IMG/VR virus record: IMGVR_UViG_3300042691_008788
Span: 1 to 64,000 of that record
From: a virus
Reading direction: 5' to 3' (one strand)
DNA length: 64,000 bases
The position numbers and the translations under genes were made by a program. A model generated the notes under the pieces. The model saw only the letters and a list, made by a program, of their open reading frames with translations, made no database searches and had not been told where the DNA came from. Shown piece by piece: positions 27,214 through 43,721 of this stretch. Within the stretch, counting starts at the first letter, position 1. The number at the start of each line of letters is the position of its first letter.

Positions 27214-27221
27214 TATAAATG
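27214..27221 (+). promoter_or_regulatory. Late-promoter-like motif TATAAATG
   Basis: One mismatch to TATAAATA, 60 bases upstream of the first packaged-protein gene at 27282. The 97-base gap 27185-27281 holds nothing else. Confidence 0.5.
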
Positions 27222-27281
27222 TCTTTCTAAAGGTAGAAATACCACTCAAATACAGAAACTTCAATAAGAAAATGGCATAAA

Positions 27282-27776
27282 ATGAGATACACAGAAGCAA
27301 GAGCAATCCTATCAGAAGCAATCGAACAACTTGATGAGACAAAACTTTTACAGAGACAAATATCTCCAGGACAACAAGGAGGCTCAACAAAGTTTTATCC
27401 GCGAGATGACCCGTCTTCTCCTTATCATTGGTACCCGACGAATGATGAGCCATTTGGACCATCGAAGTGGTTTCCGTTACCAGCCTATCCTGGTGATGCG
27501 CCACCTCCCCCAATAGATCTACGCAAGCCACCACCACCACTAAGGAGTCCAAAGGAACGACTACAGGATGAACAAGATAGAGCAAAGCGCAAAGACTATA
27601 ATGATACGCGACAGAGGGATCGATTAAGAGACTTTCGCAAAAAAATACAGGATGGATTAAACCAGAAACCATATCAAAGACCTTATGTGGCACCTTCTGG
27701 ACCTGGTGCGGGTTGGAATAATCCATATAGCCGCCCTTCTGAGCCTCCTCACCAAACTAGACCAGACTTTGACTAA
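27282..27776 (+). CDS. Pro-rich internal head protein candidate, paralog 1
   Basis: 164 residues. The leader MRYTEARAILSEAIEQLDE carries an L-S-E/A prohead-protease site at residue 12. The middle is Pro/Gly/Tyr-rich and disordered (PPPPIDLRKPPPPLRSP); a basic helical part (RQRDRLRDFRKKIQDGLNQ) follows, with a Pro-rich end. The same leader and basic helix recur in the next two genes. Role probably structural or cargo inside the head. Confidence 0.65.
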   Translation: MRYTEARAILSEAIEQLDETKLLQRQISPGQQGGSTKFYPRDDPSSPYHWYPTNDEPFGPSKWFPLPAYPGDAPPPPIDLRKPPPPLRSPKERLQDEQDRAKRKDYNDTRQRDRLRDFRKKIQDGLNQKPYQRPYVAPSGPGAGWNNPYSRPSEPPHQTRPDFD

Positions 27777-27802
27777 TCAAACTTCTCAAAGGAAACAGGA
27801 AA

Positions 27803-28486
27803 ATGAGATACGAAACAGCAAGAGCAATCCTATCTGAAGCCATCGAACAGTTGGATGAGAAAGAACTCCTACAAAGACTTGTAGACCCAGGTGATAGCAC
27901 ATTTGAACGCTCGCGTGGAGGATCAAAAAAACCATCTAGCCCAGGCATATGGGGACCGCAGTATCGACCGTTAAGACCAGATCCATCGGAACCAGTTGTA
28001 TACCCTCCAGCCAACCCTCAACAAAAACTTCCACCAGTTTTTAGACCAGATTTTGAGGACAGTCCACAAACTCCAAGACCAAGAGATCCAGATCCAGAGT
28101 ATGGCAATCCTTTTAACCGCAAACCTTGGGGGTGGCAACCAGGCAAGCCTCTTGAAATTCGTCCACCTGTTTATAGCCCCGATGGTGATCTTATAAAACC
28201 TGCAATATTCCCGTGGACAGAACCACATAGACCTCTACCCCCACCTGAGAGCAGACCAGAAAGACCTTCAAGAATTCCCCGCCCACCCATAGGTGGGCAA
28301 CCAAGAGTTCCAGGTGTAAAGTATCCCAATGATGCGGGTGGTCTGCGTGGTCCATTAGATCCTATTGAAATCGAACGAAGACGCAATAATCTACAGCGTG
28401 ATCGTGAAAGGTTGAGAAGATTCCGTGATCAAGTGCGAGATGGATTAAACCAAAGACCATATCAAAGTCAACCGCGATTCAGATAA
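27803..28486 (+). CDS. Pro-rich internal head protein candidate, paralog 2
   Basis: 227 residues; CAAAGGAAACAGG upstream. Leader MRYETARAILSEAIEQLDE with the L-S-E/A site. The 130-residue middle is Pro/Arg-rich with no regular structure, then RERLRRFRDQVRDGLNQRPYQ, a basic helix very like paralog 1. The first 50 bases of coding sequence are nearly identical to paralog 3, indicating recent duplication. Confidence 0.65.
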   Translation: MRYETARAILSEAIEQLDEKELLQRLVDPGDSTFERSRGGSKKPSSPGIWGPQYRPLRPDPSEPVVYPPANPQQKLPPVFRPDFEDSPQTPRPRDPDPEYGNPFNRKPWGWQPGKPLEIRPPVYSPDGDLIKPAIFPWTEPHRPLPPPESRPERPSRIPRPPIGGQPRVPGVKYPNDAGGLRGPLDPIEIERRRNNLQRDRERLRRFRDQVRDGLNQRPYQSQPRFR

Positions 28487-28521
28487 TGTGGATAGCCTAG
28501 CATGATAAGAAAGAAGCAAAA

Positions 28522-28875
28522 ATGAGATACGAAGCAGCAAGAGCAATCCTATCTGAAGCCATCGAACAGTTGGATGAGTACAAATATATGCAGCCAGTGG
28601 ACCCCGTATACCCATTTGATCCTGCAAGAGATAAGTTCAATCCTAAGAAACACATGCATGATGTCTGGATGCCCGTTCCACCCACAGGAGTGGATCCAGG
28701 CTTACCACGCGTTCCACCAATAGACATTGGAAAACCACCACCACCAATGATGACTCCACAAGAAAGAGCGGAGGAAAGAAGGCAGGAAGGTATGAGGCGT
28801 TATCGTGGGGAAAGAATACTCCGTGACCGACTGAGAAAATTCGGTGATACAGTACGAGATGCATTACGCCGTTAG
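28522..28875 (+). CDS. Pro-rich internal head protein candidate, paralog 3
   Basis: 117 residues. Leader MRYEAARAILSEAIEQLDE with the L-S-E/A site, Pro/Met-rich middle and the C-terminal basic helix ILRDRLRKFGDTVRDALRR. Shortest of the three tandem copies, about 35 bases after the second. Confidence 0.65.
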   Translation: MRYEAARAILSEAIEQLDEYKYMQPVDPVYPFDPARDKFNPKKHMHDVWMPVPPTGVDPGLPRVPPIDIGKPPPPMMTPQERAEERRQEGMRRYRGERILRDRLRKFGDTVRDALRR

Positions 28876-28915
28876 AATTAAAAGATAATACAGAAACTTG
28901 ACAAAGAGAGAAAAG

Positions 28916-30235
28916 ATGAACAACCTATTCCTAAACCACCTAAACTCAATCACACCTCAAGGAAAAGCCAAAGATACATGCATCTTTGTTCCTGCAAGTG
29001 ATATTAATGAAGCCCCCAAGTATGTCCAAGATGCCATTCCCGCAGTCCCAAATCTTTACATGCTCACCTACAGTCCTGGTGAGAAGAATGAGACTCAGGG
29101 TGGAAGGAGGAAGTTCGTTGGTAAGATGAAGAAGAATCCTTCTATGGTCTATGAGGGTGCCTACAAGGGTGCCATGGAGGATTGGCTAACTGATCTTCCC
29201 AAGCCAGCGATTGCGGAACTCAAGGCAAAGCACGGGAAGGAACTTGCCCATACGGGTGGAGCGGGATACCGAGACATTGCCACCAAGAAGACCCTTCCAC
29301 TTCACAAGTCCATCGTCGGCATCCTGAAGAAGCACAAGGTCAAGCCATTTGCCCAAAACATCCATGACTCGTCCCATGTCATCCAGATGTCATTCCATAC
29401 CTTCCATGGTGACATGAATGAGGAGAAGCATGTGGATGATGAGGGTGGAATGGCAATGGGTGAACTCAAGTCTATTATTGCAAATGCTAATGACATCATG
29501 TCGATGCTAAAGTCTGATTCTCAACTTGAGGGATGGGTTCAGTCCAAGATTACGAAATCAGCAGATTACATTTCTTCAGTGAAAGACTACCTTTCCAATA
29601 CTCCAAATTCGATATCTGAAGAGGAGAAAAAGAAAGAAGAAAATGAAGAATCAACCAAGAGCATGATTGCTCGTCTTGTTGCTAGGGGTCACAAGAAACT
29701 TGGTAAAAAGATTCCCGATGATGTGATCCGCGATGTCGATCCAAAGTACAAGACCAAGGATGACATGTACGAAGCCGCACAAGAGATAGACAATCTTCCT
29801 CCAAGCGACAATCCATTTTGGCAAGGTAGTAGAACTAGAAAGCCATCTGATGGAAGACCAAATCTTTTTTGGAGAAGGAAAGTAAATCCTGGTAATGAAA
29901 TAGATGCTCTTGAGCCAAGAGGATCAAGAGATATTCGCTATTTTGAAGGACAGAGGCAGTTGAGAGATAGGCTTCCTTCAAATCCTCCTCCAAGTGTAGC
30001 AGAGGCAGCACCCGACATTGGACAGAACCTCAAGGGGATGCCAAAGAGGGCGGGTAGAAAACTTGCATATGCTTCCAAGAGGTGGGGCAAGGGCGAAATC
30101 CCATACAGCGAGTACAAGGTTGCGGATGAAAGACACACCCGCAAGATGGGTGGAAATGCAAGACGAATTGGAAAGAATCTTGACCAAGCCGTGACAGACT
30201 TCATCTCAAGGAAGCCAAGACGAAAGCGAAGATGA
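28916..30235 (+). CDS. Internal head protein candidate, ITPQGKA leader
   Basis: 439 residues from the ATG at 28916 (AGAGAG upstream). The start MNNLFLNHLNSITPQGKA is shared with the gene at 34526. A possible I-N-E/A site lies at about residue 36 (SDINEAPK). A domain of about 200 residues (MLTYSPGEKNETQGGRRKFVG, HTGGAGYRDIATKKTLPLHK, QNIHDSSHVIQMSFHTFHGD) looks folded; the rest is charged and ends very basic (RRKRR). Function unknown; probably packaged. Confidence 0.6.
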   Translation: MNNLFLNHLNSITPQGKAKDTCIFVPASDINEAPKYVQDAIPAVPNLYMLTYSPGEKNETQGGRRKFVGKMKKNPSMVYEGAYKGAMEDWLTDLPKPAIAELKAKHGKELAHTGGAGYRDIATKKTLPLHKSIVGILKKHKVKPFAQNIHDSSHVIQMSFHTFHGDMNEEKHVDDEGGMAMGELKSIIANANDIMSMLKSDSQLEGWVQSKITKSADYISSVKDYLSNTPNSISEEEKKKEENEESTKSMIARLVARGHKKLGKKIPDDVIRDVDPKYKTKDDMYEAAQEIDNLPPSDNPFWQGSRTRKPSDGRPNLFWRRKVNPGNEIDALEPRGSRDIRYFEGQRQLRDRLPSNPPPSVAEAAPDIGQNLKGMPKRAGRKLAYASKRWGKGEIPYSEYKVADERHTRKMGGNARRIGKNLDQAVTDFISRKPRRKRR

Positions 30236-30240: not shown

Positions 30241-30549
30241 ATGAAATCATTCAATCAGTTCATTTCCGAAAGTTCAGAAAGACTTGTGAAGATTAAGCAG
30301 TCTGGTCATTCTGCAAACATCCGCAAGATTGATGACAACACATCCATGTTCTCTCATCGTGGTGTGGTCGGTCATGTGACCAAGGCATGGAACCGCATGG
30401 GTGGTTGGGGGTATCAGGCGGGGAACATCCGCGTGAATGGTAAGGATGTCGGTCTTCCCGTGATCCATGGAACACACAAGACCATGAATGATGCCATTCA
30501 CAATGCCTATCAGCACACGATGTGGCACATGTCCAAGGGGAAGAAATGA
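30241..30549 (+). CDS. Small internal head protein candidate with MKSF leader
   Basis: 102 residues. The leader MKSFNQFISES has an I-S-E/S site at residue 10, like T4 internal proteins. The mature part is basic with His/Asn (HSANIRKIDDNTSMFSHRG, NRMGGWGYQAGNIRVNG) and ends WHMSKGKK. ATGA overlap with the metalloprotease gene, so the two are made together. Confidence 0.65.
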   Translation: MKSFNQFISESSERLVKIKQSGHSANIRKIDDNTSMFSHRGVVGHVTKAWNRMGGWGYQAGNIRVNGKDVGLPVIHGTHKTMNDAIHNAYQHTMWHMSKGKK

Positions 30550-30914
30550 AGTCCTTCATGCAGTTCATTTCAGAGCAGAATGAGAACACGATCAATGACT
30601 TCGTGCAGTTCGCTGCACAGGAACTTGGCTTGCAGACCACTCCAAGCATCAGGTTGTTGCAGTCGCGTGAGAATGGCATGACCACGGCATCCTATTGCCC
30701 CGAGGACAAGAGCATCAAGGTATTGTGTGGCAACAGAGCCACATTTGACATTTGCAGATCCATTGCACATGAGTTGGTGCATCAGATGCAGGATGAGAAT
30801 GGCGATGAACTCGACGGAGAGACGGGATCACCATGCGAGGATGAAGCCAATGCACTCGCGGGTAGGTTGATTCGCACCTATGGCGGCAACAATGCTGGCT
30901 TCTATGAGGAATAA
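30546..30914 (+). CDS. Metalloprotease with capsid-targeting leader
   Basis: 122 residues from the ATG at 30546. The leader MKSFMQFISEQ carries an I-S-E site. The rest has SIAHELVHQMQDENGDE (HEXXH, residues 75-79) and CEDEANALAGRLIR with the third-ligand Glu about 20 residues on, the pattern of small gluzincin-like proteases (ImmA/IrrE relatives). If processed and injected it could cut a host protein at the start of infection. Catalytic residues are intact; the target is unknown. Confidence 0.7.
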   Translation: MKSFMQFISEQNENTINDFVQFAAQELGLQTTPSIRLLQSRENGMTTASYCPEDKSIKVLCGNRATFDICRSIAHELVHQMQDENGDELDGETGSPCEDEANALAGRLIRTYGGNNAGFYEE

Positions 30915-30917: not shown

Positions 30918-31421
30918 ATGAAGACCTACGAACAGTTCATTGCAGAGGCAATGGAAATAAAGAATCTTTCCGAGAATTGGTCATATGCTCATGATTTTGA
31001 TGAGATGCCGAACTCAGAGAAGCAGAAGTATGTCTACCATGTCACAACGGCAGCAAGGGCAGCAAAGATTGTCAAGCATGGTCTGAAGCCACGCAGTCCA
31101 AAGGGTCGCACCAACTACCCAGGCAACAAGGAATACACCCAAGGTCATGCATTCGTGACCAATCATCAAGGTGTGCGCTATTGGAAGGATCAGACGCTTC
31201 ATGCAGTGAATCGACGCAAGCGCGAGGTGGATGAAAGAGACTACGAAAACATCCATGTGGTAAAGTTCCCAATCTCAAATCTCGCAAAGTCCACAAAAAG
31301 AAAGTTCACGACCGATCAACTTGGCACCAAGGATGCAAGGAAACATGATGATGATCCACTCATTGATCCATCAAGTCATGAAGGATCCACCGCATTCAGG
31401 ATTCGAAAGAAAGTCCGCTGA
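30918..31421 (+). CDS. Head-packaged ADP-ribosyltransferase-like protein (candidate)
   Basis: 167 residues. The leader MKTYEQFIAEA is nearly identical to the T4 internal-protein leader MKTYQEFIAEA, with I-A-E/A cleavage after residue 10. The mature domain has VYHVTTAARAAKIVKHGLKP (40-58), then HAFVTNHQGVRYW (77-89) and VVKFPIS, the signature of ART-fold proteins of the YHvT...GLxP type. T4 Alt is also a packaged ADP-ribosyltransferase. The catalytic Glu cannot be fixed by eye. Terminator follows. Confidence 0.6.
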   Translation: MKTYEQFIAEAMEIKNLSENWSYAHDFDEMPNSEKQKYVYHVTTAARAAKIVKHGLKPRSPKGRTNYPGNKEYTQGHAFVTNHQGVRYWKDQTLHAVNRRKREVDERDYENIHVVKFPISNLAKSTKRKFTTDQLGTKDARKHDDDPLIDPSSHEGSTAFRIRKKVR

Positions 31422-31568: not shown

Positions 31569-33728
31569 ATGAATACCATTACAATAACCAAGATAGAAGA
31601 AGCATCCGCACCCAATAAGGGCAAGGCATTTCTCCTTGCTGGATCGTTCAGTCCATACACGGTTGGACACCATGAGGTTGCACGACAAGCCGCTGAACAT
31701 GCTAAAGGTACAGGTCATACGCACTTCTACCATGGCATCGGTGGTGCGGCAAAGCAGACGCACGACGATCCATTGACACACGCACAGAAGAGATCCATTG
31801 TCCGTGCTGGTCACAGAGAACTCGCAAAGGAACACAAAGGGTTGAAGTTCCGTGCGATGGGATCGGAGCAAAGAGATCCATTCAGGCAACTTGCACACCT
31901 CGCGCAGAGGGGTCACAAGCACATCACGGTTGGTCTTGGCTCCGATCAGATGAAAGGCAAGTTGAAAAGGGAAATAGAGGGCAGCATTGCAAAAAAGGGT
32001 GGCATTGAGGACAAGACGGGAAAGATCCACAAGGTCAGGGTGGACTTCCATCAACTTGGTGGAGAGAGACACGAAGGAGAGATGCCACGACATGAGGTGT
32101 TGAGTAGATTGAGGAAGGGAGACATCAGCGTTGCAAAGGCTGGTCGTCTTCGCAAGGCGGTTGCATCTGGTGATACAGAACTAGCACATGAACTCATGCC
32201 AAAGCACATGAATAAGCCAAAGTACTTCGGCATGATCAAGTCCGCACAATCGAAGATAGCAAAGCCAAAGAAGAAGGTGGTGAAAGAAGGCTACATGTCC
32301 TTCGCTGAGTTTGTTTCGGAGGACATCGAACTGATTCCCGTAACTAGAGATAGAGATGCAGGGAAGCCAAGGAAAGCAGAGGTTGTCCACAAGGACTATG
32401 GAACGAAGACCTACTCATCCGACAAGGTTGTGACTCGAAAGAATCATGGAGAGATTCATCCTGGTTACGAACTTCATCAGCACTCCGTCGAGATGGACAA
32501 CAACAGACCGAGTGGACCACAAAGGATTGTGAAGCACAAGTTCACGATAGTACACAAGGCAAGCGGAGATATCGCTGGAGAAATGCACGCTTGGGGTGGC
32601 AAACTTCATCCGAAGAAGGGCGTTGTGTTTGGGTCAAAAGGCAAGGCACTGAAGGTATCTCATCTTGAGATGCATCCCGAACACGGCAGCAAGAAGGTCG
32701 GAGCATCTTTGCCCGTTGAAATGTACAGACATCTTCATAGAAGAGGACATGCCATTCAATCTGATTCAGTACAGAGCCACGGTGGAGCGCATGTGTGGAA
32801 CACAATGCGTAATGATCGTGAACTCAAGAAGCACATGATGATCCATGATGATGACAAGGTAGACACGAAGCAAAAACATGCATTTCAGACTCGCGCATAT
32901 AGAAGACCAGAGAGACACATTTGGCACCAGTTCAGCAGAAGTTGGAGTGGCGGAAGAGATAATCCATCAAAGGTAGAACCAGAGTATGGAGTTGATCCCG
33001 ACTTCAAGAGGACATTGATTCTTGCTGGTAAGAAGCGCAAGAAGAAGCCCGCTGTTGTATCGGAAGACATTGAGATGGCTGATATTCTTGTAAAGCCGAA
33101 GAGCGGTGGACTGAGTCCACGAAACTTTGAGAAGATGGTCGCACACAAAGGGTTGAAGCCAAAGAGATCTGGTAAGATTGCAAAGGGATACACTCTCTAC
33201 ACATCGGTTGATGCAACACATCCCGAATTTGAAGATCACCATATCGTGCATGATGCAACAGGACATGTTGCGGGTGAAGTTTCGACTCGCACATCTGGCA
33301 ACGACCACACGGTCATTCACACAGATGTTCATGGAGATCACACACAGAAAGTAATAGGAAAATCCCTTGCCGTGCTTGCATATAAGCACCTTGCAAAGAA
33401 GAAGGGAAACCTACACAGCAGCAGTCTACAGAGTCCTGGTGGTGCATCCATATGGAATAGACTTCGCAAGAATCCAAAGATGAAGGGTCAGGTCTTTCAT
33501 AAGATGAGAGGACAGGCAGAGGTTCCTGCACACGATCTACCCGATAAGAAGATATGGGCAACAGATGTCAAAGGTGGAATGTCATCATCCAACAAAGATA
33601 TTCCAAAGCCTCTTCCTCCATCGAAGCATCATGCCGCAGAGCATGAAAATGTGATAGGATCGCGTCTTGTGATCAGACCCATAAAAAAGACTAAATATAA
33701 AAGTACCAAAACAGGAGAAACAAAATGA
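31569..33728 (+). CDS. Polyprotein: nucleotidyltransferase-like domain plus two GNAT-like domains, packaged
   Basis: 719 residues. The leader has an I-E-E/A site at residue 11 (TKIEEASAP). Residues 20-230 resemble a cytidylyltransferase-like (NMNAT) domain with GSFSPYTVGHHEV (TxGH motif, 31-34). A second leader-like segment MSFAEFVSED stands at 243-252. Two related GNAT-like domains follow: GASLPVEMYRHLHRRGHAIQ ... GGAHVWNTM and GKSLAVLAYKHLAKKKGNL ... GGASIWNRL. A third L/I-x-E-like site lies between them (VVSEDIE). Probably several injected enzymes in one chain. No Shine-Dalgarno upstream. Confidence 0.6.
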   Translation: MNTITITKIEEASAPNKGKAFLLAGSFSPYTVGHHEVARQAAEHAKGTGHTHFYHGIGGAAKQTHDDPLTHAQKRSIVRAGHRELAKEHKGLKFRAMGSEQRDPFRQLAHLAQRGHKHITVGLGSDQMKGKLKREIEGSIAKKGGIEDKTGKIHKVRVDFHQLGGERHEGEMPRHEVLSRLRKGDISVAKAGRLRKAVASGDTELAHELMPKHMNKPKYFGMIKSAQSKIAKPKKKVVKEGYMSFAEFVSEDIELIPVTRDRDAGKPRKAEVVHKDYGTKTYSSDKVVTRKNHGEIHPGYELHQHSVEMDNNRPSGPQRIVKHKFTIVHKASGDIAGEMHAWGGKLHPKKGVVFGSKGKALKVSHLEMHPEHGSKKVGASLPVEMYRHLHRRGHAIQSDSVQSHGGAHVWNTMRNDRELKKHMMIHDDDKVDTKQKHAFQTRAYRRPERHIWHQFSRSWSGGRDNPSKVEPEYGVDPDFKRTLILAGKKRKKKPAVVSEDIEMADILVKPKSGGLSPRNFEKMVAHKGLKPKRSGKIAKGYTLYTSVDATHPEFEDHHIVHDATGHVAGEVSTRTSGNDHTVIHTDVHGDHTQKVIGKSLAVLAYKHLAKKKGNLHSSSLQSPGGASIWNRLRKNPKMKGQVFHKMRGQAEVPAHDLPDKKIWATDVKGGMSSSNKDIPKPLPPSKHHAAEHENVIGSRLVIRPIKKTKYKSTKTGETK
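33691..33697 (+). promoter_or_regulatory. Late-promoter-like motif CTAAATA
   Basis: CTAAATA overlapping TATAAAAG, 28 bases before the 33725 ATG and inside the end of the previous gene. GGAG lies between. Confidence 0.45.
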
Positions 33729-34525
33729 GCATTCCAAACATTCAGCAGCAACTTTACCTCAAGAAAGCACTCAATGAGGACACCGATGGGATGTTCGATC
33801 ATCCAACTCTTGATGAAGGTTCCTATGTTCACTCAAAGAAGCAACTCAAGAAAGCCGTCAAGGGTTCAAAGAGAGAGATTGTCAAGGCACTCAAGCGCGG
33901 CAACAAGAAAGATGCTGAGTTTTGGATGCAGAACAAGAAGGACGCAGAGTCACAAATGTCTGAATCCATTGCTGAAGGTTCTTATGTTCACTCAAAGAAC
34001 CAACTAAAGAAGGCTGTCAAAGGTTCAAAGAGAGAGATTGTCAAGGCAATGAAGCGCGGCAACAAGAAGGATGCAGAGTTTTGGATGCAGAACAAAAAGG
34101 ATGCAGAATCACAAATGTCTGAATCCATTACTGAAGGTTTGCTCCGCAGATACAACGAACTCACAGAAGGATCACGCGGTCTTGCTCGTTATCAGCGCAT
34201 CGTAAAGGCATTGACAAAAAAGGCCGCTTCTTTGAAATCCACCCCAAAGCCAACAACAATGGCTGGTGATGAAGCACTTCATAAGAGAACTATGAATAAA
34301 CTAAAACTTTCAAAGGGTCAGCAGTTGCGTGACCGTGTGCAGATTTCTCGCGAACGCATGAGGGCTGGATTGGCTCCAAGCATTCCATCAAAGACCGTGA
34401 GTCCCGCTCAAGGTGATGAGACAGGAACATGGAGAATCAAGTCTGGTGCTGATCGCGCGCCAAAAACAGTTTTAAAGTATCGCGCAGCATCGGCAGCAAA
34501 AGCAGCAAAAGGAAAGGCCAAGTAA
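33725..34525 (+). CDS. Basic internal head protein candidate with a tandem 53-residue repeat
   Basis: 266 residues; CAGGAG upstream and ATGA overlap with the polyprotein gene. First site L-N-E/D at residue 18. Two 53-residue repeats start EGSYVHSKKQLKKAVKGSK and end SQMSESIAE / SQMSESITE, so each repeat border is itself an I-x-E/G protease site. The C-terminus is Lys/Ala-rich. Cleavage would release two near-identical basic peptides, which would suit DNA condensation or injection. Confidence 0.65.
   Translation: MSIPNIQQQLYLKKALNEDTDGMFDHPTLDEGSYVHSKKQLKKAVKGSKREIVKALKRGNKKDAEFWMQNKKDAESQMSESIAEGSYVHSKNQLKKAVKGSKREIVKAMKRGNKKDAEFWMQNKKDAESQMSESITEGLLRRYNELTEGSRGLARYQRIVKALTKKAASLKSTPKPTTMAGDEALHKRTMNKLKLSKGQQLRDRVQISRERMRAGLAPSIPSKTVSPAQGDETGTWRIKSGADRAPKTVLKYRAASAAKAAKGKAK
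33815..34132 (+). repeat. Tandem repeat, 2 copies of 159 bp
   Basis: Copies at 33815-33973 and 33974-34132, in frame (53 codons each), differing by scattered substitutions; a few bases of a third copy follow. Direct duplication within the coding sequence. Confidence 0.9.
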
Positions 34526-35554
34526 ATGAACAATCAGTTTCTACAACATCTCAAGTCCATCACTCCTCAAGGCAAGGCCGAGGAGAAGAAGATATTCATC
34601 TCAGCAGAACGACTCAAGGAGTTGGAGGCAGAAGAACTTGATGAGGCCACACGCTCCAAGTATCTAAAGGTATATGGTAAGCACAAGGTTGGAACTGATA
34701 CAGGCGCACTTGAACTTGCAAGAAAGAAGCACGATGCTGCCATCATGCGTCGCGGTGGTGCTTCTCCAGAGGCAGTTAAGAGGGGACTAGCCAATGAATA
34801 TGGCATAGACCACGAAGTTGATATGGCAAAGTATAGATTTGCAAACAAGAGGGCTAAACACTTAGATAAAGCGATTGCCAATTATAATAGAAAAGCAAGC
34901 AAGTCAACGAACGAGGCCGTATCAACCAATGACCCAAACAGAGGTCGCATGGGAAGAGCAAAGCCAAAACTACCACCTGGTCTAGATCCTTATGATATGT
35001 ACAGCAAGGGTGAGATTCAACCATATGGTGGCAAACTTCAGAAGAGACTTCGCTCAATGAGTGCAGAAGATCGCAAGAGATACTATCAGCAGATCGGCAT
35101 TCGTTCACGCGCTGCAAGCCGTAGTGGAAAGACTCAGAGATTGTTTCCTATGACTGAAGGCGTTAAGAGGATGCGTAGGCTTCGCTCTGCGCGATTTGGG
35201 CAACAGGGAACCACGAAGGAACTTGATGCTGCCTATGATAAGGAACTCTCCAAGGTGAGCGCAAGCCGTCTTCGTCGTGGCGGTGCGCCAAAGCAGACCG
35301 TTCGTGCGTTCTTCACAGACAAGCCAACCACAAAGGCAGCGGACAAGGCATATTCGAAGTTCTCCAAGGATGCAATGAACAAGGCAAGTGCCAAGGGCAA
35401 GAAGATCTTCGAAGCAACTAAGGTTGGCAAGAAGATCAAGCGCAAGATTGTGAAAGCAAAAAACAGGCTTCGCAACATCGGAAGAAGAGTAGTAGATACA
35501 CTTGGAACTCCCCAAGATAATACAGATTACATGCTCACTGGTAGGAAGTTCTAA
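34526..35554 (+). CDS. Basic internal head protein candidate, ITPQGKA leader
   Basis: 342 residues, starting at the base after the preceding stop. The start MNNQFLQHLKSITPQGKA matches the 28916 gene; an L-D-E/A site lies at about residue 40. The mature part is very basic with repeated phrases (RSKYLKVYGKHKVG, SASRLRRGGAPKQTVRAFF, GRRVVDTLGTPQDN). Probable DNA-associated core or injected protein. Confidence 0.6.
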   Translation: MNNQFLQHLKSITPQGKAEEKKIFISAERLKELEAEELDEATRSKYLKVYGKHKVGTDTGALELARKKHDAAIMRRGGASPEAVKRGLANEYGIDHEVDMAKYRFANKRAKHLDKAIANYNRKASKSTNEAVSTNDPNRGRMGRAKPKLPPGLDPYDMYSKGEIQPYGGKLQKRLRSMSAEDRKRYYQQIGIRSRAASRSGKTQRLFPMTEGVKRMRRLRSARFGQQGTTKELDAAYDKELSKVSASRLRRGGAPKQTVRAFFTDKPTTKAADKAYSKFSKDAMNKASAKGKKIFEATKVGKKIKRKIVKAKNRLRNIGRRVVDTLGTPQDNTDYMLTGRKF

Positions 35555-35566
35555 AAGGAAATAACA

Positions 35567-37009
35567 ATGAAGACTAGAGATCTTAAATCACTATCAGAAA
35601 CAATCGCATCCGTGGTCGATCCAATCGATAAGGAACGCGCACAGATGCTACAGGAAGGCTTTCTCAACTCGTTGACCGAGAAGGCTCGTCAGATCGCTTC
35701 CAAGGAAATGGAAGATGAAGGCGAAGAGGAAGAAGACGAGGACGAGATGGAGGATGAAGGCGAAGAGGAAGAGAAGCCAACCTCCAAGAAGAAAAAGGCC
35801 AAGATGGATGAGGCTTATCCAACGACTTATGTACCAGAACCAAAGCCAGTAAAGCCAGAACCAAAGCCAGTAAAGCCAAAGAAGAAATTGAGTGATTATA
35901 GATCAAAGCCTTATCCAAAACTCACCAATGAGGACATCGAACTTGCAGAGAAGGCAGCACCTGGCTATGAGGATTGGGCATCCGATCCCAAGGTCAAGGC
36001 ATCCTTCAAGAAGCAATACGGCAAGCGTTGGAAGGAAGTCATGTACGGACACTCATGGAACCTTGCCAAGCAGGAAAACAAGTTGGGTTTGGATGAAGAA
36101 GAACAGTTGGATGAATTGACTGATGCCCTTATTAGCAGGGCAAGGAACAAGGCAATCCTACGAGGTCCAGAGAAGCGTGGTTTTGTTAAGAAAGCAACAA
36201 AGAGACTCCAATCAAGCGGAGCAATGGCTCCACGACCAAGCACTTCGACGGAACGCGATTCACAGTGGAACAAAGCATTCAATGAAGAAACTGATTTGGA
36301 TGAAGCAGTATCCGCCAAGCGTATGCGTATCATCCGCAAGTATGTCAAGGGAAATAAGAGAGTTCCAGAGCATCTGAAGGACTACATGGAGAGATCCTTC
36401 AAGAAGAAGAGGTTCAAGGACAAGCAACTCTCCGATGGTAGAGGAGCAGTCGGTGCATTGGAGACTCGTATGCGTAGGAAGTCTGCTGCACTAAGAGCAA
36501 GAGGCATTGAACCAAAGGGTGTTGCACCAGGATACCTTGAAGAAGGCATCCTCAAGAAACTTCGCAGGGCCAAGGGAGCAGCATATGCTGCCATGCAAAA
36601 GGGAGAGGGAGACAAGTATGCCAAACTCCATGGAGTGGCATCTGGACTTGAGTCAAGGTACAAGGCAAGTATGGCTCGTCGTGGTGAAGCAACACAAGAG
36701 ACAGTAAGGGGTGCGGGAAGCCGCCTTTCCAAGAAGGGCAAGTATACTCTCAAGGCAGGAAAACTAGCCACACAGCATGACAATGCAATCTCCCGTTTCC
36801 GCACGAAGGTTCGCACGGCAGAGTTGTTTGGCAGGGAAACCGATAAGGGAGCAAAGAGAGAGCGTCAACAGGCACAGGCCAAGTTCCGCATGGATGCTCG
36901 TCACGGAGATTTTGGTTATAATGACATAATTACTCCCGAGATCAAGAAGGCTGGCCTGAGAGCGCGTTACAACTACGAAAAGAGATACGGTAGACTAAAG
37001 GGAAAGTAA
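35567..37009 (+). CDS. Large basic internal head protein candidate
   Basis: 480 residues; AAAGGAAATAACA upstream. Leader MKTRDLKSLSETIAS with an L-S-E/T site. A strongly acidic block (residues 47-70, Glu/Asp) and a Pro/Lys repeat (EPKPVKPEPKPVKPK) are followed by about 350 basic residues with LDELTDALISRARNKAILRG and many RR/KK. Further L-x-E sites (DELTDAL, YLEEGIL) suggest multiple cuts. Looks like a T4-type core or packaged DNA-binding protein. Confidence 0.6.
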   Translation: MKTRDLKSLSETIASVVDPIDKERAQMLQEGFLNSLTEKARQIASKEMEDEGEEEEDEDEMEDEGEEEEKPTSKKKKAKMDEAYPTTYVPEPKPVKPEPKPVKPKKKLSDYRSKPYPKLTNEDIELAEKAAPGYEDWASDPKVKASFKKQYGKRWKEVMYGHSWNLAKQENKLGLDEEEQLDELTDALISRARNKAILRGPEKRGFVKKATKRLQSSGAMAPRPSTSTERDSQWNKAFNEETDLDEAVSAKRMRIIRKYVKGNKRVPEHLKDYMERSFKKKRFKDKQLSDGRGAVGALETRMRRKSAALRARGIEPKGVAPGYLEEGILKKLRRAKGAAYAAMQKGEGDKYAKLHGVASGLESRYKASMARRGEATQETVRGAGSRLSKKGKYTLKAGKLATQHDNAISRFRTKVRTAELFGRETDKGAKRERQQAQAKFRMDARHGDFGYNDIITPEIKKAGLRARYNYEKRYGRLKGK

Positions 37010-37025
37010 TAAAAGGAGATAGATC

Positions 37026-37142
37026 ATGGCAAAAGTGAAGACACCCGCAAGACCACGCATTCGGGAACTAAAGCATCAGTTGTACATCAAGGCATTGAAC
37101 CGCAAGAAGAACCTTGATGGGTGCAATGGTAGAAAATACTAA
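37026..37142 (+). CDS. Small basic peptide
   Basis: 38 residues (MAKVKTPARPRIRELKHQLY start) with AAAGGAGAT 4-11 bases upstream. Basic, helical. Its TAA overlaps a CTAAATA late motif. No family recognised. Confidence 0.55.
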   Translation: MAKVKTPARPRIRELKHQLYIKALNRKKNLDGCNGRKY

Positions 37143-37145
37143 ATA
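37139..37145 (+). promoter_or_regulatory. Late-promoter-like motif CTAAATA
   Basis: CTAAATA 73 bases before the 37218 start, inside the only gap of this transcript. The rest of 37146-37217 holds an AAAGG binding site. Confidence 0.45.
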
Positions 37146-37217
37146 TTCAAACACGCACTGATATTCTAGAACCTATCAGCGCACTCACATAGTTTCGAAA
37201 CTACGAAAGGTAAGAAA

Positions 37218-38204
37218 ATGGCAATCAATAGAGACGCATACAAGTCACTCGTAGAGTCAGTCAATGAGGCTGTCTCTGCACCATCAGTGGGTGCATCAAA
37301 GGGTGCAGCCCGTGTAAGAGGCGGAAGAACTTCCTCGACTGCATCATCCAAGCCATCGAATCTCCAATGGGGTTCATCGGCAATCGGTGGAGCAATGAAC
37401 GCAACTGAACTTGCACAATGGCTTGCATCACAGCAAGGAAGTGGAAAGCAAGGCCCATCAGTCGGCGTTGCTGACACAGCAATGGGTGTTGCGAAGGGAT
37501 CGGCAGCAAAGAACCTCTCCAGCGTATCTGGAAGAGGTGGCTCAAACACACAGCGTGCAGCAGCATCATCTTCTGGGTGGGGTGGCTCTGGTGTCTACGG
37601 TGCAAAGAATGCAGAAGATCTTGCCCGTATCCTAAATCAAATGCAGAATGATGGGCCATCTGTTTCGACGGGTGCATCAAAGGGTGGCATGAAGTCACGA
37701 AACAATCCACTCTCAAGTCGCAAGCCAGGATCAACGAGTTCATCTAAGCCAGCAGCAAAGAAGCCAACCGTTTCCGTTGCTGATGTTCAAGAAGCACTTG
37801 ATATCCTTGCAGAGGCTCAACTAAACGAGTGGCCGATCAATATTGGTGGCCGCACTGCAAACAATGCATCTGAACTTGCACAGATCCTAAACTCAATGCA
37901 GAATTCAGGAAAGCCATCGGGTTCAACTCCATCTGTTTCTAAGGGAGTTGCTGGTGCTGCCCCAAGAGGAAACCTCCTATCAAACCGTAGACCAGGTACA
38001 ACTACAACGGCAAAGCCAGCACCAAAGGCTCCAACAGTTGGAGTTGGTGGCATAGGAGCAATGTCTGAAGAATGGGACATCCTTGACGAGATCCTCGCAG
38101 AAGGTCTTGAACTCTACGGGGAAGAAGGACTCGCAGAGATCCTTGCTCACTTCGCAGAGACTGGCGAGATGTCCGAAGAACTCGCTGATCTTCTTGGCGA
38201 ATAA
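37218..38204 (+). CDS. Gly/Ser-rich internal head protein candidate
   Basis: 328 residues. Leader MAINRDAYKSLVESVNEAVS with an L-V-E/S site at residue 13. Low-complexity Gly/Ser/Ala with repeated phrases (ATELAQWLASQQGSG, AEDLARILNQMQNDG, ASELAQILNSMQNSG) and SxPSVG-KG blocks; further L-A-E sites occur. The C-terminal 50 residues are acidic helices (EEWDILDEILAEGLELYGEEG). Terminator follows. Likely packaged; role unknown. Confidence 0.6.
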   Translation: MAINRDAYKSLVESVNEAVSAPSVGASKGAARVRGGRTSSTASSKPSNLQWGSSAIGGAMNATELAQWLASQQGSGKQGPSVGVADTAMGVAKGSAAKNLSSVSGRGGSNTQRAAASSSGWGGSGVYGAKNAEDLARILNQMQNDGPSVSTGASKGGMKSRNNPLSSRKPGSTSSSKPAAKKPTVSVADVQEALDILAEAQLNEWPINIGGRTANNASELAQILNSMQNSGKPSGSTPSVSKGVAGAAPRGNLLSNRRPGTTTTAKPAPKAPTVGVGGIGAMSEEWDILDEILAEGLELYGEEGLAEILAHFAETGEMSEELADLLGE

Positions 38205-38230
38205 TCAAACTTAGTTAAACTTAGTCACAA

Positions 38231-38262
38231 GGGGAGAGGGTAAAACCTCTCCCCTGTTATTT
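38231..38262 (+). terminator. Rho-independent terminator
   Basis: Perfect 9-bp stem GGGGAGAGG/CCTCTCCCC, 6-base loop, then TGTTATTT. Same layout (terminator followed at once by a late motif) as at 31525-31562. Confidence 0.85.
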
Positions 38263-38270
38263 CATAAATA
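38263..38270 (+). promoter_or_regulatory. Late-promoter-like motif CATAAATA
   Basis: One mismatch to TATAAATA, 5 bases before the 38275 ATG, directly after the terminator. Confidence 0.45.
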
Positions 38271-38274
38271 CATC

Positions 38275-38841
38275 ATGGAGGATTATCTTGGAATGGCCGA
38301 TTCTTTAACATCAAGCATCACTAGAGTTCTCATGGAGAGTCATGATACGGACTTGTCTGGCAAGTTCTCATTATTCACTCTTTATTCGGACAACAGTTCA
38401 GTTCTTCACATCTTCGAAGACGAGGAAACCTTTGAAGCCATGAAATACAAGTTTTCATCAGATGACAACATCAAGCGTCTCGGTGCCTCAAGGTTGCCAG
38501 AGAACACTACCTTCAAGAAACTTTCAGAATCAATAGAGCGCAAGTTCGATGTGCCAAGAGAAACAATCTCAGTCCGCACACACGATCCCATGCCCAAGGA
38601 ACAGCCACAGCCCAAGAAGGTTGTGAATGAAATGAGGAAGGCTCCCATGCAGCCCAAGAAGGGTTCCGTGGTAGAGAGCGTCCTCAAGGGCAGAGAAAGA
38701 TTCTCAAACCAACCAAGACAGCAGATGCCTCAGATGGAGGCACCCAAGGAAGAGCCTACAATCAACTCCTTCCGCCCCGCAACGAACCAAAAAATAGATC
38801 TGTCCAAGTTGAACAGCGGCGACAGACCAATGCTAGGATGA
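38275..38841 (+). CDS. Internal head protein candidate
   Basis: 188 residues. A short leader ends in RVLMESHD (L-M-E/S at about residue 21). The first domain is mixed alpha/beta (LSGKFSLFTLYSDNSSVLHIF, FEDEETFEAMKYKF), the rest Pro/Gln/Lys-rich (PMPKEQPQPKKVVNEMRK) with V-N-E and V-V-E sites. Unrecognised family. Confidence 0.55.
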   Translation: MEDYLGMADSLTSSITRVLMESHDTDLSGKFSLFTLYSDNSSVLHIFEDEETFEAMKYKFSSDDNIKRLGASRLPENTTFKKLSESIERKFDVPRETISVRTHDPMPKEQPQPKKVVNEMRKAPMQPKKGSVVESVLKGRERFSNQPRQQMPQMEAPKEEPTINSFRPATNQKIDLSKLNSGDRPMLG

Positions 38842-38844
38842 ACC

Positions 38845-39318
38845 ATGGCCGAAAAGAAAGATAAAGAATCAAAAGAGAAGTCATCATCCAACGAGAAAAC
38901 ATATCTCGTCAAGTACAGGCTCAAGGGCGAGAAGGGAAGGACTCCTCGCAAGATCACTGTACAGGCATTGAACCAAGCCGATGCCAAGAAGACTGCAATA
39001 GCAACCATTCCTGGTGCAGAAGTTGTCGGTGGGGCAAAGGAACTCAGCGAAGGTGTGCTTGACTTTGCGGGTCGATTGGGTAAGTTTGCAAGTAGATGCG
39101 CTGGTAGACTCTGCCATGCCTATTCAAGTAGCCCAATCAGGGACAAGGGAAGCATCTCCACCACAAGAAAGATATTCACAAGAGAACTAGCCCACATGGC
39201 TGGAAACAAACTCATGGATATTGGTGGAGAAGATGCAAGACCAATGTCAAAGATGCGATTCTCAAGTGGCAGAAAGAAGAAAAAGACAACTACTAGAAAA
39301 AAGAAACGATCACCATAA
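38845..39318 (+). CDS. Basic hypothetical protein
   Basis: 157 residues, 3 bases after the previous stop, AGGATG upstream. Charged N-terminus (KKDKESKEKSSSNEK), a short compact domain (YLVKYRLKGEKGRTPRKITV, QADAKKTAIATIPGAEV) and an Arg/Lys-rich tail (GRKKKKTTTRKKKR). L-S-E/G at about residue 69. Likely in the same packaged set; function unknown. Confidence 0.55.
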   Translation: MAEKKDKESKEKSSSNEKTYLVKYRLKGEKGRTPRKITVQALNQADAKKTAIATIPGAEVVGGAKELSEGVLDFAGRLGKFASRCAGRLCHAYSSSPIRDKGSISTTRKIFTRELAHMAGNKLMDIGGEDARPMSKMRFSSGRKKKKTTTRKKKRSP

Positions 39319-40498: not shown

Positions 40499-41074
40499 AT
40501 GGGTCATGAACTACACATCATCGCGGGAATCGACTACTCGTTGTGTGGTCCTTGCATCTGCGTCTTTGAAGGTGGTGCAAAGTTCTCGTTCGATGACTGC
40601 TGCTTCTACTTCCTGACAGATACCAAGAAGTATGCAAAGGTTTTTCTTGGAAACATCCACGGAGAGTTGTTCTCTGAGTGGGAACAAGACATGGAGCGGT
40701 ATCAGAGCATCGCTGATTGGGCTGTGGATATCCTCAAGAATGTCAAGCAAGTCGCACTTGAGGGATATGCATACTCAGCCACGGGAAAGGTCTTCCACAT
40801 CGCTGAGAACACGGGAGTCCTAAAGTACAAGTTGTTCAGTGAAGGCATTCCCGTGACTATCATACCACCAACAGAAGTGAAGAAGTTCGGTAGTGGCAAG
40901 GGCAATGCTGACAAGACCGCTATGCATGAGGCATTTCTAAAGGAAACGGGAATCGACCTCAAGGCCATCATGACACCCGACAAGAGAGATGTTGCATCCC
41001 CCGTGTCTGATATCGTTGATGCCTACTACATCTGCAAGAAGATGCACGGCGAGTTGATCCTATCGTCTATTTGA
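40499..41074 (+). CDS. RuvC-like Holliday junction resolvase
   Basis: 191 residues from the ATG at 40499. RNase H-fold nuclease signature: IIAGIDYSLCGPCICV (first Asp at 12), VALEGYAYSATGKVFHIAEN (catalytic Glu), IPPTEVKKFGSGKGNADKTAM, and PVSDIVDAYYICKKM (final acidic pair). Phage RuvC-like resolvases cut branched DNA before packaging and take the place of T4 gp49. No ribosome binding site is visible. Convergent, 8-base overlap with the membrane protein gene. Confidence 0.85.
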   Translation: MGHELHIIAGIDYSLCGPCICVFEGGAKFSFDDCCFYFLTDTKKYAKVFLGNIHGELFSEWEQDMERYQSIADWAVDILKNVKQVALEGYAYSATGKVFHIAENTGVLKYKLFSEGIPVTIIPPTEVKKFGSGKGNADKTAMHEAFLKETGIDLKAIMTPDKRDVASPVSDIVDAYYICKKMHGELILSSI

Positions 41075-41945
41075 CGAGTTTGGATCTAATCTCCTTGACG
41101 ATCTTCTGAGTCGATGCCTTCTGAACCTTACGAGCAATACCATCATCACCGAAGATCTTGTTCTTGACCTCTTCGGGAACCTCGGTCTTGATGCTCTCAA
41201 GCAACTGCACATTGTCGGCAACTGCTTCCTCTGTCTTCTTGGAGCGGAAGATGAGATATCCAACTGAGCCAGCGGATACAAGGAATCCTATGATGAAGAC
41301 CACAAGACCAACGGTTGCGATCTCCTGATAGTAGTATTGATTTGCGGCAGCAAGACCAACAGATACGAATCCAGCGCATAGAATCATACCACCGATTATT
41401 CTGTGGAAGTATGCGACGATCATGCCAGCGACGATCATGGCAAAGCCAACCATCCAGAAGATGCGAACGATCTTCTGAATCTCTGCTGTGGAAGCAGCCA
41501 CAAGATCATCGTATTTCTTCTTCCAATCGCTGTTGGTTTTTTCAAGTTCTTGGATCTGATTAAGCAATGGCTGAGTCTTCTCTGCCACTATCTCTTGCTT
41601 GACCATCTCTGTTTCTTTCTGTATTGAGATGGTTGCATTCTCGACCTTGTTGCTCTCGACAACGATCTTAGATGCCTCTTCGGTTATCTTTGGATCATCC
41701 GTGCTGTCCTTGATGATCGTTGCTGATTCACTTATAGCAACCGCAGATTGCTTGATTTGCTCTGTTTCGGCAGCAATGTTCTCAGTAGCAGTCTCAACCT
41801 TCTCAATGTTTTGATACACGGTTGTTGCAACTGGTGTGGTTGGCTTCTCTATCTTTGGTGTAGATGGTGTAGATGTACACTTGACACCCATCATCATGAC
41901 TCCAAGTGTAAATATCGCGGCCACTCGCATCATCATGTTGTTCAT
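41067..41945 (-). CDS. Coiled-coil membrane protein with signal sequence
   Basis: 292 residues. N-terminal hydrophobic signal (MRVAAIFTLGVMMMGVKC, poor lipobox at Cys), a Thr/Pro linker, a long coiled coil (about 45-150, rich in Glu/Ile/Thr), then three membrane helices (MVGFAMIVAGMIVAYF, GGMILCAGFVSVGLAAA, VGLVVFIIGFLVSAGSVGY) and a charged tail. Could take part in envelope disruption or receptor blocking; no known family recognised. Last gene of the minus-strand transcript. Confidence 0.6.
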   Translation of the reverse strand: MNNMMMRVAAIFTLGVMMMGVKCTSTPSTPKIEKPTTPVATTVYQNIEKVETATENIAAETEQIKQSAVAISESATIIKDSTDDPKITEEASKIVVESNKVENATISIQKETEMVKQEIVAEKTQPLLNQIQELEKTNSDWKKKYDDLVAASTAEIQKIVRIFWMVGFAMIVAGMIVAYFHRIIGGMILCAGFVSVGLAAANQYYYQEIATVGLVVFIIGFLVSAGSVGYLIFRSKKTEEAVADNVQLLESIKTEVPEEVKNKIFGDDGIARKVQKASTQKIVKEIRSKLVK

Positions 41946-41946
41946 A

Positions 41947-42966
41947 TCATCGCACCATCGACTTTCTTTTCTTCAAAGACTTTGCTCTCTTGCGGTTTGC
42001 TGCTGCTCTCTTCTTCTTGGACTTGCGAGCAGACTTCTTTGCTTGTCTTGACCTCTTGGCTTTCTCAGCCCCACCCATCTTGATGCAAGCCTTGCCACCA
42101 CGCTTTGCCAACTTCTGTCCCTCTGGACACTTGAAGACGATGCGCTTCTTTCCACCACGAATGACGATCTTGCGCTTTGCACCCTCGGCAAGCATCTCAA
42201 GTTCCTCGACGGGAATCAAATCAACTACCTGATCCATGGTGATGTCATCAACGCCATGAATGATGTAGTGTGTCTCCGTGAGCGAGGTGTTCGTGATGTC
42301 GAGTGACAACTTCATCTCATTCACTGGTTCGGACTGCTGTCCCTTGGCGAACCTTGGATTCTCAAAGTTTTTCTTGGGGAATCCCTTCGGACCCTGACGA
42401 ACCAACTTGACCTGTGTGGCATTCTTACCCTTGCCAAGCGTGGATACGAGTCCCTCATGCTCCTCGCCATCATGTGTCTTTATGTCGAACTGATGCTCAT
42501 GCCCACGGAACTCATCAAGCATGTGGTGAGTTGCCTGAGCGATGTGATGGTGTGCCTTGAACAATGCCTTGAAGTGGTGGACATTGTCATCGATGTCCTT
42601 GTGCAGTTCACCGAGTTTCTTTGCCCTACCCTTCTCGCTCTTTGTGGTTCTGTCAACCCACTTCTTTGCATGAGCCTTCAACCCTTCGACGCTGCGGAGT
42701 CCCGTTGTCCTTGCTGCGGTGTTGGAGTAGTTCCTCACCATGTCATGCATCTGCGAGTGAACACCTTCTCCACTTGCAAGCCTACGGGAGAACTCATGCA
42801 CTTCTGGAGTCAGGTGCTTCTGTGCGGCGGCAAGATGCTTGGTGATCTGCCTGTCGCGATTCGCTGCAAGGGACAACTTGATCTTCTTGTTGATGGCAAG
42901 ATCGGGAGCATGGACTCCTTCACCCTGTATCTGACTCACATCTGGATGGCTTGAGACTTTCTTCAT
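41947..42966 (-). CDS. DUF6267-like protein, C-terminal part
   Basis: 339 residues, start overlapping the stop of the upstream gene by 4 bases (ATGA). Helical N-terminal part (ITKHLAAAQKHLTPEVHEF, HHFKALFKAHHHIAQATHHM), a small beta domain, then KRKIVIRGGKKRIVFKCPEG ... CIKMGGAEKAKRS and a Lys/Arg-rich tail. The CxxG-K...C basic tail is common in T4-like phages of aquatic bacteria. With the preceding gene it may make up one longer protein in relatives. An L-A-E/G site precedes the basic tail, which may be released. Confidence 0.6.
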   Translation of the reverse strand: MKKVSSHPDVSQIQGEGVHAPDLAINKKIKLSLAANRDRQITKHLAAAQKHLTPEVHEFSRRLASGEGVHSQMHDMVRNYSNTAARTTGLRSVEGLKAHAKKWVDRTTKSEKGRAKKLGELHKDIDDNVHHFKALFKAHHHIAQATHHMLDEFRGHEHQFDIKTHDGEEHEGLVSTLGKGKNATQVKLVRQGPKGFPKKNFENPRFAKGQQSEPVNEMKLSLDITNTSLTETHYIIHGVDDITMDQVVDLIPVEELEMLAEGAKRKIVIRGGKKRIVFKCPEGQKLAKRGGKACIKMGGAEKAKRSRQAKKSARKSKKKRAAANRKRAKSLKKRKSMVR

Positions 42967-43721
42967 GCCTTTGTTCCTGTCTTGGGAAGTTTATACTGCG
43001 AGTGAGCGGCAATGGTCAATGTCGCACCAGGCTTTGTCTTGTAGGTGATCGTATTTGGCTTTGCTGTTTCCGATTTGGTATCGGTATGATGGACGAGATC
43101 AGCCTGAAATGCATGACCAGGCTCGATGTTCATCTTCTTGACATGACGCAGAGCGGGTATGAGGTCACGGACATAGTGTTCCTTGCCTGTCTTATGAATG
43201 TCTTCCTCGCTTGTGAAGGTGGCATCCTCATTGCCGTGCTTGGAGCGGACAAAATGAGTTCCATCATGATGGCGACCTATCACGATGCTGTGACCGCCAT
43301 CGACCTTGAGGGATGGTTGATGTCCCTTGGTGATCTTGCCCTTGAACCTCTGATGCATGGCAGTCATGTGCTTCATGGCAACCGATGGATCACCATGGTA
43401 GAGATAGTCCGCGACATGTTCAAGATGTCCCGTGGTGGCTTTCTTGCTCCTCTTGAGTGCCATCTCCATGAGATCGGACTTTTGCTTTGGCTTCCTGCGC
43501 CAGATGCCTCTACCAAACTCTCTTTGCTTGTACTTGGGGGAGACAGGCTCGCCATCCGAAACCATGGCAAGACCAGGAGCAGAGGCCGTGTTTGCAACCT
43601 CTTCATCAAAGAACATCTCAAGGATATCCATCTTGTCTTGGTCGAGCATTGCCTCTGCAACAAGAAGCCGTGCCTCGGCTTCGATGCTCTCAACAAGGAA
43701 TCTTTCGTAACTCTTGCTCAT
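42963..43721 (-). CDS. DUF6267-like ligase/nucleotidyltransferase-type protein with packaging leader
   Basis: 252 residues. Leader MSKSYERFLVESIEAE with an L-V-E/S site. The core has SLKVDGGHSIVIGR (K139-x-D-G, the motif I form of nucleic-acid ligases), FVRSKHGNEDATFTSEEDI, HAFQADLVHHTD and ITYKTKPGATLTIAAHSQYK. These phrases match the phage family DUF6267. A ligase or nucleotidyltransferase activity is possible but not shown. Overlaps both neighbours by 4 bases. Confidence 0.65.
   Translation of the reverse strand: MSKSYERFLVESIEAEARLLVAEAMLDQDKMDILEMFFDEEVANTASAPGLAMVSDGEPVSPKYKQREFGRGIWRRKPKQKSDLMEMALKRSKKATTGHLEHVADYLYHGDPSVAMKHMTAMHQRFKGKITKGHQPSLKVDGGHSIVIGRHHDGTHFVRSKHGNEDATFTSEEDIHKTGKEHYVRDLIPALRHVKKMNIEPGHAFQADLVHHTDTKSETAKPNTITYKTKPGATLTIAAHSQYKLPKTGTKA

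Follow-up and report, generated by a model that had tools for sequence, protein, structure and literature searches.

Candidate head-packaged cargo proteins with prohead-protease leaders in a T4-like phage

The T4-like myophage represented by IMG/VR record IMGVR_UViG_3300042691_008788 (156,618 bases) has a block of genes most of which begin with a short leader of the kind found on T4 internal proteins (IPs), and this raises the question of whether their products are packaged in the phage head and delivered with the genome. Although T4 internal proteins were recognized decades ago, the cargoes and functions identified so far are only a handful. The window analysed here is the stretch of 64,000 nucleotides that makes up bases 1-64000 of the record; positions refer to the window unless marked G000, which denotes the whole record, L-numbers denote other sequences compared, and gene starts were set by a simple script rather than a trained gene caller. 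We consider it likely that the 14 genes at 27.3-39.3 kb, all on the plus strand and here called the cluster, together with an S-adenosylmethionine (SAM) lyase gene at 10668, encode virion cargo that is made late in infection, cleaved by the prohead protease and released with the DNA.

Leader sites, late promoters and virion proteins

The initial annotation described leaders with [L/I/V]-x-E in nearly all genes from 27.3 to 38.8 kb and in those at 10668 and 42963; the genes lie where that description puts them, and counting bears it out. By a bare criterion ([LIV]xE before A, S, T, D or Q, with the glutamate at residues 8-21), a leader site is present in 11 of the 14 cluster genes, at residues 10-18, versus 14 of 146 other genes of the phage (Fisher p=4e-8); 28916, 34526 and 38845 do not match. 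Shuffling of the leaders in 5000 trials gave a mean of 1.4 cluster matches and a maximum of 6. Genes 10668 and 42963 also match, and the matches outside the cluster include gp21, gp22 and gp23, which are themselves expected substrates of the protease. It is the position of the sites, not their number, that is non-random, the density of sites over whole cluster proteins not being above that elsewhere. Both IPII and IPIII of T4 (NC_000866) start MKTYQEFIAEA, as the initial annotation stated, and 30918 starts MKTYEQFIAEA.

The leader sites are also conserved. Of 25 comparisons with homologues in the relatives L011, L012, L022, L026, L028, L030 and L033, 23 retain the site when a shift of a few residues is allowed; for sites of this kind in the remaining genes, 7 of 19 do (p=1.4e-4). 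The flanks of the leader site drift between relatives (IEEA, IDEA, ITEA; ISES, LTEA, LAEG). The T4-type late promoter NATAAATA stands 20-50 bp upstream of 12 genes, tail genes included, versus 0.3 expected; only this placement is non-random, as the genome-wide total of NATAAATA is 19 versus 17.9 by chance. Within the cluster, a late promoter of this type, CATAAATA (38263..38270, plus strand), is located 30 bp upstream of 38293, and none was found upstream of 27282.

Outside the window, the record encodes a major capsid protein (phrog_138, 2.6e-141), portal and terminase, a gp55-type late sigma factor, and a gp22-type scaffold protein (phrog_237; Pfam T4_CASP 9.4e-65) whose gene has the highest density of [LIV]xE among all genes of the phage; the N-terminal region of gp23 carries LRE|A. 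The gp21 homologue that the initial annotation proposed to seek outside the window is present as a head maturation protease of the S77 family (G000 111875-112522; phrog_207; PF03420 Peptidase_S77 3.3e-39; T4 gp21 structure 8.3e-21), with GELGHP and GVSSRG motifs (catalytic His and Ser) at places that align with those of T4 gp21. The predicted packaging and prohead cleavage are well supported by this protease, the T4-type scaffold, the late sigma factor and the match of a strict leader pattern to the virion proteins of a cultured relative, cyanophage S-CREM2, described below. The capsid protein is closest (about 55%) to those of the phages Mosig (Pelagibacter) and Melnitz (Methylophilales) and of marine cyanophages. 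No DNA-level relatives were found among phage records, and tblastn with 30918 or 31569 as query recovered no match there; IMG/VR was the only source of relatives.

The published mass-spectrometry list of S-CREM2 virion proteins (PMC10665884 Table 3) comprises 52 proteins. The bare motif failed to predict them: it is present in 6 of 28 detected non-tail proteins and 22 of 128 undetected ones (p=0.38), which speaks against a packaging role for the motif taken alone, and for this reason a stricter pattern was drawn up. According to a review of the T4 head (PMC9026906), mutagenesis of the IPIII leader links residues 4 and 7 to targeting and residues 8 and 10 to processing; the strict pattern taken from these data, M-x(1-4)-[FYW]-x-x-F-[LIVMF]-x-E, is found in five of 170 genes, namely 10668, 30241, 30546, 30918 and, offset by one, 42963. 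It matches four of the 209 S-CREM2 open reading frames (ORFs) examined (SAM hydrolase ORF6, kinase ORF14, ORF136 and cytidylyltransferase ORF154), and all four are on the virion list (p=0.0027, in a test that was not fully blind, the pattern having been written after the S-CREM2 leaders were seen). A looser pattern matches seven ORFs, five of them detected in virions (p=0.0085). In this cultured relative, the targeting leader goes with presence in virions, subject to that caveat and to the statement of the authors, which also tells against packaging, that enzymes may have co-purified with virions (PMC10665884).

A signal similar to these, slightly further in (RFASFMAE|A), is carried by S-CREM2 ORF12 (L160:7704-10313), which is annotated as a CRISPR-Cas9 nuclease and is present in virions; it has no Pfam match, and the name Cas9 looks doubtful. 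In S-SZBM1, the adjacent SSZBM1_191 and SSZBM1_192 (L164:32312-33126) have the T4-type leaders MKSFKSFLSES and MKTFKQYITEA and are absent from the published list of 30 virion proteins. A scan of viral-contig DNA for MK[ST..][YF..]xxF[IM]xEA returned at least 120 stretches. Among the matches listed, 122 proteins of at least 40 residues fall into 47 families, which include nucleotidyltransferases (NTases), DUF6267 proteins, zeta-toxin/AAA kinases, adenylate kinase, GNAT, DPBB, glucosaminidase and one PARP-like protein; thus, proteins of many unrelated kinds carry the tag.

For this phage, we infer how the cargo is cleaved, packaged and injected, and what it does in the host, as follows. The cargo proteins would be made late in infection and carried into the prohead core by an N-terminal signal like the capsid-targeting sequences of T4 internal proteins; the gp21-type protease that the phage itself encodes would cut after [LIV]xE, removing the leader, and the same cuts would separate the modules of multidomain cargo (31569, and probably 33725, 34526 and 35567); the freed proteins would remain in the head and exit with the DNA; and the SAM lyase would empty the host SAM pool before phage gene expression, disarming SAM-dependent restriction such as type I/III restriction-modification and BREX.

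Several further points weigh against this course. The phage is uncultured and known from sequence alone, and cyanophage cargo is not known from experiment to reach the cytoplasm. Eight of the thirteen leader genes lack the aromatic targeting residues, so that their leaders rest on clustering and, in five of the eight, also on conservation in relatives, and the leader site of 42963 is only loosely kept in L012 and L011. In S-SZBM1, one of two annotated ORFs with the strict pattern was detected, in a shallow list of 30 virion proteins. The initial annotation counted more than ten cargo proteins delivered with the genome, a figure that is plausible without being equally secure throughout: five candidates have the full T4-type targeting signal, and eight have a cleavage-type site only, three of these being proline-rich paralogues.

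A probable polyprotein and a SAM lyase

The candidate cargo polyprotein 31569 (31569..33728) consists of a leader (IEE11|A), an NTase domain, the sites VKE240|G and VSE251|D, a first GNAT module, the site VSE499|D and a second GNAT module. The first domain is of the cytidylyltransferase type (phrog_395 4.6e-6). The GNAT modules, for which a Pfam search gave no match, were recognized with AlphaFold2 (AF2) and Foldseek: the AF2 model has a pLDDT of 70, and among the 50 PDB matches listed nearly all are acetyltransferases, mostly GNAT, the best of those listed having E 5.7e-4 and probability 1.00 with modest TM values (<=0.43). The NTase and GNAT folds are supported, and enzyme activity is only predicted. 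Of the enzyme motifs in the candidate cargo, these folds and the SAM lyase stand, whereas an ADP-ribosyltransferase and a metallopeptidase fall below significance.

Homologues of 31569 have one GNAT module (L012), two (the window protein and L022) or three (L011); in L014 an HNH-type domain (HNH_3 3e-4, below cut-off) comes after the NTase, and the C-terminus of L018 is similar to it. Every NTase-GNAT and GNAT-GNAT junction holds at least one protease-type site, often a full internal leader (VKE|GYMSFAEFVSE|D). With domain limits set by hand from sequence landmarks, all 18 protease-type sites of four homologues are in leaders or linkers, and the domains contain none in 1,885 residues versus about 12 expected from the genome average; to the detriment of the argument, the four are kin, their sites are not independent and the statistics are overstated, the window protein alone giving p=0.017. 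Because every site lies in a leader or linker and none in a domain, 31569 is probably a polyprotein that is cut into pieces by the prohead protease. No peptidase domain was found in it by profile searches. This architecture is new here and, like the late promoters, was absent from the initial annotation. BLAST gave no significant homology between 31569 and S-CREM2 ORF154, which has only the family type in common with it and, at 286 residues, no room for GNAT modules of the 31569 type.

The alternative that survives best is that only the five proteins with a full signal are head cargo, the rest (27282-28875 and 31569-39318) being proteins of the prohead core or akin to scaffold, which the protease would fragment and which would for the most part exit the head, as happens with gp22 and gp67 of T4; they would then be assembly parts and not delivered effectors. 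Several cluster proteins resemble core proteins in being basic, acidic or repetitive and in having numerous internal sites, the basic tail of 41947 (41947..42966, minus strand) resembles a head-scaffold family (phrog_3503 2.5e-5), and in T4 the core proteins are cleaved to fragments (PMC9026906). However, the folded enzyme domains of 31569 are free of sites, so that cutting would release them intact, and NTase-type proteins are present in virions of S-CREM2, S-SZBM1 (a cytidylyltransferase) and S-SCSM1 (an NMNAT-like protein), with targeting leaders in the first two; we regard this alternative as unlikely, albeit with some weight.

Gene 10668 (10668..11213, plus strand) is firmly assigned as a SAM lyase on the basis of its match to Pfam PF23780, the Svi3-3/T3 SAMase family (2.6e-14; 53.7 bits versus a curated cut-off of 28, residues 31-133), and its similarity to S-CREM2 ORF6, to which the predicted product is 30% identical and which was detected in virions by mass spectrometry with 19 unique peptides. 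Candidate counterparts of the catalytic Tyr58 and Glu69 of Svi3-3 are Y69, E71 and E82, which do not vary among eight homologues. Against PDB sequences, a single-sequence search gave no match and a profile search a weak one (7OCK, E=0.53). The leader, MKSYREFVTE|A with a predicted cut after E10, varies among homologues (MKDFKQIREEAALIE, MKTYKEFIQDIQE, and, in Alishewanella phage Slickus01, a sequence that is unrelated to these and has LSE at its end), and a [LIV]xE|[AS] site is located just before the conserved SLSR core in every aligned homologue, with LEE|SSLSR at the corresponding place in S-CREM2 ORF6.

Members of this family destroy SAM and counter restriction (PMC7877911, PMC8406200). 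A SAM lyase made late would be no shield for the incoming DNA of the same infection and would therefore be most sensible as cargo for the next one. It could instead act mainly as a newly made enzyme, as in T3, with a leader that is a relic or that packages a minor fraction, and the location of the gene among tRNAs and small genes of early type fits such a role. This seems improbable: the late-type promoter TATAAATA (10638..10645, plus strand), 30 bp upstream of the gene, is conserved in relatives, with ATAAATA at the same position before the homologue in L026, L028, L033, L034 and P-TIM68; the S-CREM2 homologue is among the virion proteins; and an enzyme that is merely made late would be of no use when incoming DNA is restricted.

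Very improbable is a third explanation, that the leaders have no connection with the prohead protease and [LIV]xE is a by-product of amphipathic acidic N-terminal helices in ordinary early or host-takeover genes, since a motif that is short, occurs in about 10% of other N-termini and is not predictive by itself in S-CREM2 is nevertheless enriched here, with its E and the residue two before it conserved while their neighbours change, with late promoters, with leader-bearing proteins in virions by mass spectrometry, and with leaders nearly identical to those of T4 IPII and IPIII.

The phage also encodes a D12-class adenine DNA methyltransferase (22178-23008; PF02086 9.5e-28), whose cofactor the SAM lyase would use up; the two enzymes also occur together in S-CREM2 (ORF8 and ORF6). 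In P-TIM68, the second gene upstream of that for SAM lyase is annotated as a putative peptidase.

Relation to known cargo systems

The closest parallel is with IPI, IPII, IPIII and Alt of T4, which have in common with the candidates described here a ten-residue signal (aromatic residue at 4, F7, hydrophobic residue at 8, E10), an L/I-x-E cleavage motif, and gp21 and gp22 in the genome. The present phage differs from T4 in its many more candidate cargo genes, most of them in one cluster, in the eight leaders that deviate from the aromatic pattern, and in its SAM lyase and multidomain proteins with internal sites; no homology to the T4 internal proteins was found beyond the leader. With S-CREM2 it shares a homologous SAM lyase and a CTP_transf-type protein, both with the same kind of leader. 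S-CREM2 virions contain a SAM hydrolase, a cytidylyltransferase, a kinase and 'Cas9', and the virion SAM hydrolase and its anti-restriction role were already proposed for that phage; the account of these enzymes given there does not tie them to leaders or to the prohead protease (PMC10665884). The loading of varied proteins by T4-like phages via a targeting sequence has also been suggested before (PMC9026906). A literature search, thin on subscription journals and bioRxiv, found no paper tying cyanophage virion enzymes to targeting leaders and none describing cargo polyproteins cut by a prohead protease.

Two other systems are comparable in part. Polyvalent proteins of phages and conjugative elements, such as DarA and DdrB of P1 (Iyer et al. 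2017, PMC5512222), likewise combine several conflict-related domains in one polypeptide and are proposed to enter along with DNA and to be freed by proteolysis, but their release is attributed to an embedded peptidase, whereas in the present case a separate capsid-assembly protease would act at sites in each junction. Many head proteins of the giant phages phiKZ and SPN3US, including ejection and inner-body proteins, are cut C-terminal to glutamate by a relative of gp21 and ejected (PMC9026906); these phages, compared here from the literature, differ in phage group and cargo.

A wider proposal, which we hold tentatively and with slightly more doubt than confidence, is that T4-like phages of freshwater and sea run an open cargo-loading system, in which a ten-residue tag and a protease site would admit any protein to the head, and in which long cargo polyproteins would acquire, shed and exchange modules (GNAT, HNH, basic peptides) at protease sites and be diced by the capsid-assembly protease into separate injected enzymes. 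If packaging of the leader-bearing proteins is true, an N-terminal code would tell likely injected phage proteins from sequence alone, early-acting anti-defence enzymes could be listed across environmental phages, and the polyprotein would be a new phage route to several enzymes in fixed ratio from one gene. Packaging would also help to explain the recurrence of SAM lyase and NMNAT-like enzymes in cyanophage virions, a matter left open in the reports of their discovery (PMC10665884, PMC9602691).

Other members of the cluster and neighbouring genes

The cluster begins with three paralogous genes for proline-rich basic candidate cargo, 27282..27776 (leader MRYTEARAILSE|A), 27803..28486 (MRYETARAILSE|A) and 28522..28875 (MRYEAARAILSE|A). 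The next gene, 28916..30235, has no [LIV]xE leader; its N-terminus, MNNLFLNHLNSITPQG, is common to 34526, in the form MNN[LQ]FL[NQ]HL[NK]SITPQGKA, and a similar one is present in L011 and L022. This N-terminus is possibly a second, undescribed targeting signal or mark of a cargo class.

Three candidates with full targeting leaders follow. The small protein 30241..30549 starts MKSFNQFISE|S, a site for which L012 has LTE|A and L022 has LAE|G. The product of 30546..30914 starts MKSFMQFISE|Q, with the site conserved, and has an HELVH motif; its match to Peptidase_M78 (8e-4) is below cut-off, and the assignment as a metallopeptidase is suggestive only. The third, 30918..31421 (MKTYEQFIAE|A), appeared ADP-ribosyltransferase-like by eye, an identification that gained no support: the PARP match (E=0.02) is below cut-off, a PDB-sequence search gave nothing significant, and the AF2 model has a pLDDT of 51 and no significant match in a fold search.

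Beyond 31569, three basic or modular proteins have sites that coincide with the limits of repeats or modules. Candidate cargo 33725..34525, which is basic, has the leader site LNE18|D, conserved in L011, L012 and L022, and a tandem 53-residue repeat that spans exactly site to site (LDE31|G, IAE84|G, ITE137|G). The basic modular protein 34526..35554 lacks a [LIV]xE leader and has modules that begin after LDE40|A and MTE211|G; one of its segments resembles a segment of 35567 (9e-4), including a module that begins directly after the site, MTE|G in 34526 and LEE|G in 35567. The modular basic/acidic candidate cargo 35567..37009 has the leader site LSE11|T and further sites at 30, 82, 246 and 326. 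Judged by these arrangements, all three are probably polyproteins cut by the prohead protease as well. The remaining cluster genes encode a repetitive Ser/Gly-rich candidate cargo protein (37218..38204; leader LVE13|S / VNE17|A), a candidate cargo or core protein (38293..38841; leader LME15|S, with LLE|S or LME|S in three relatives) and a basic protein without a leader that ends the cluster and has one internal LSE|G site (38845..39318).

The leader-bearing gene 42963 (42963..43721, minus strand; MSKSYERFLVE|S) encodes a DUF6267-type N-terminal half, its L012 homologue matching DUF6267 positions 3-165 at 5e-12, and the adjoining 41947 encodes the DUF6267-type C-terminal half (PF19782 9.5e-8, profile 200-373) followed by the basic tail. 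DUF6267 proteins with leaders are also found in other viral contigs.

Upstream of the cluster are a large phrog_459 'peptidase' (23447-25996) and, just before the cluster, a conserved protein (26413-26871) with a VHEYCHF (HExxH) motif, possibly a metalloprotease, for which a Pfam search gave no match. A leader-like start, MKTLNEILNE|S, is encoded outside the window at G000 74632-75210 (L002:10632-11210, minus strand), adjoining apparent sugar-metabolism genes. Elsewhere in the window are genes for a destabilase-type protein (14589-15014; PF05497 9e-8) and a PD-(D/E)XK nuclease (45121-45798; PF12705 2.6e-9).

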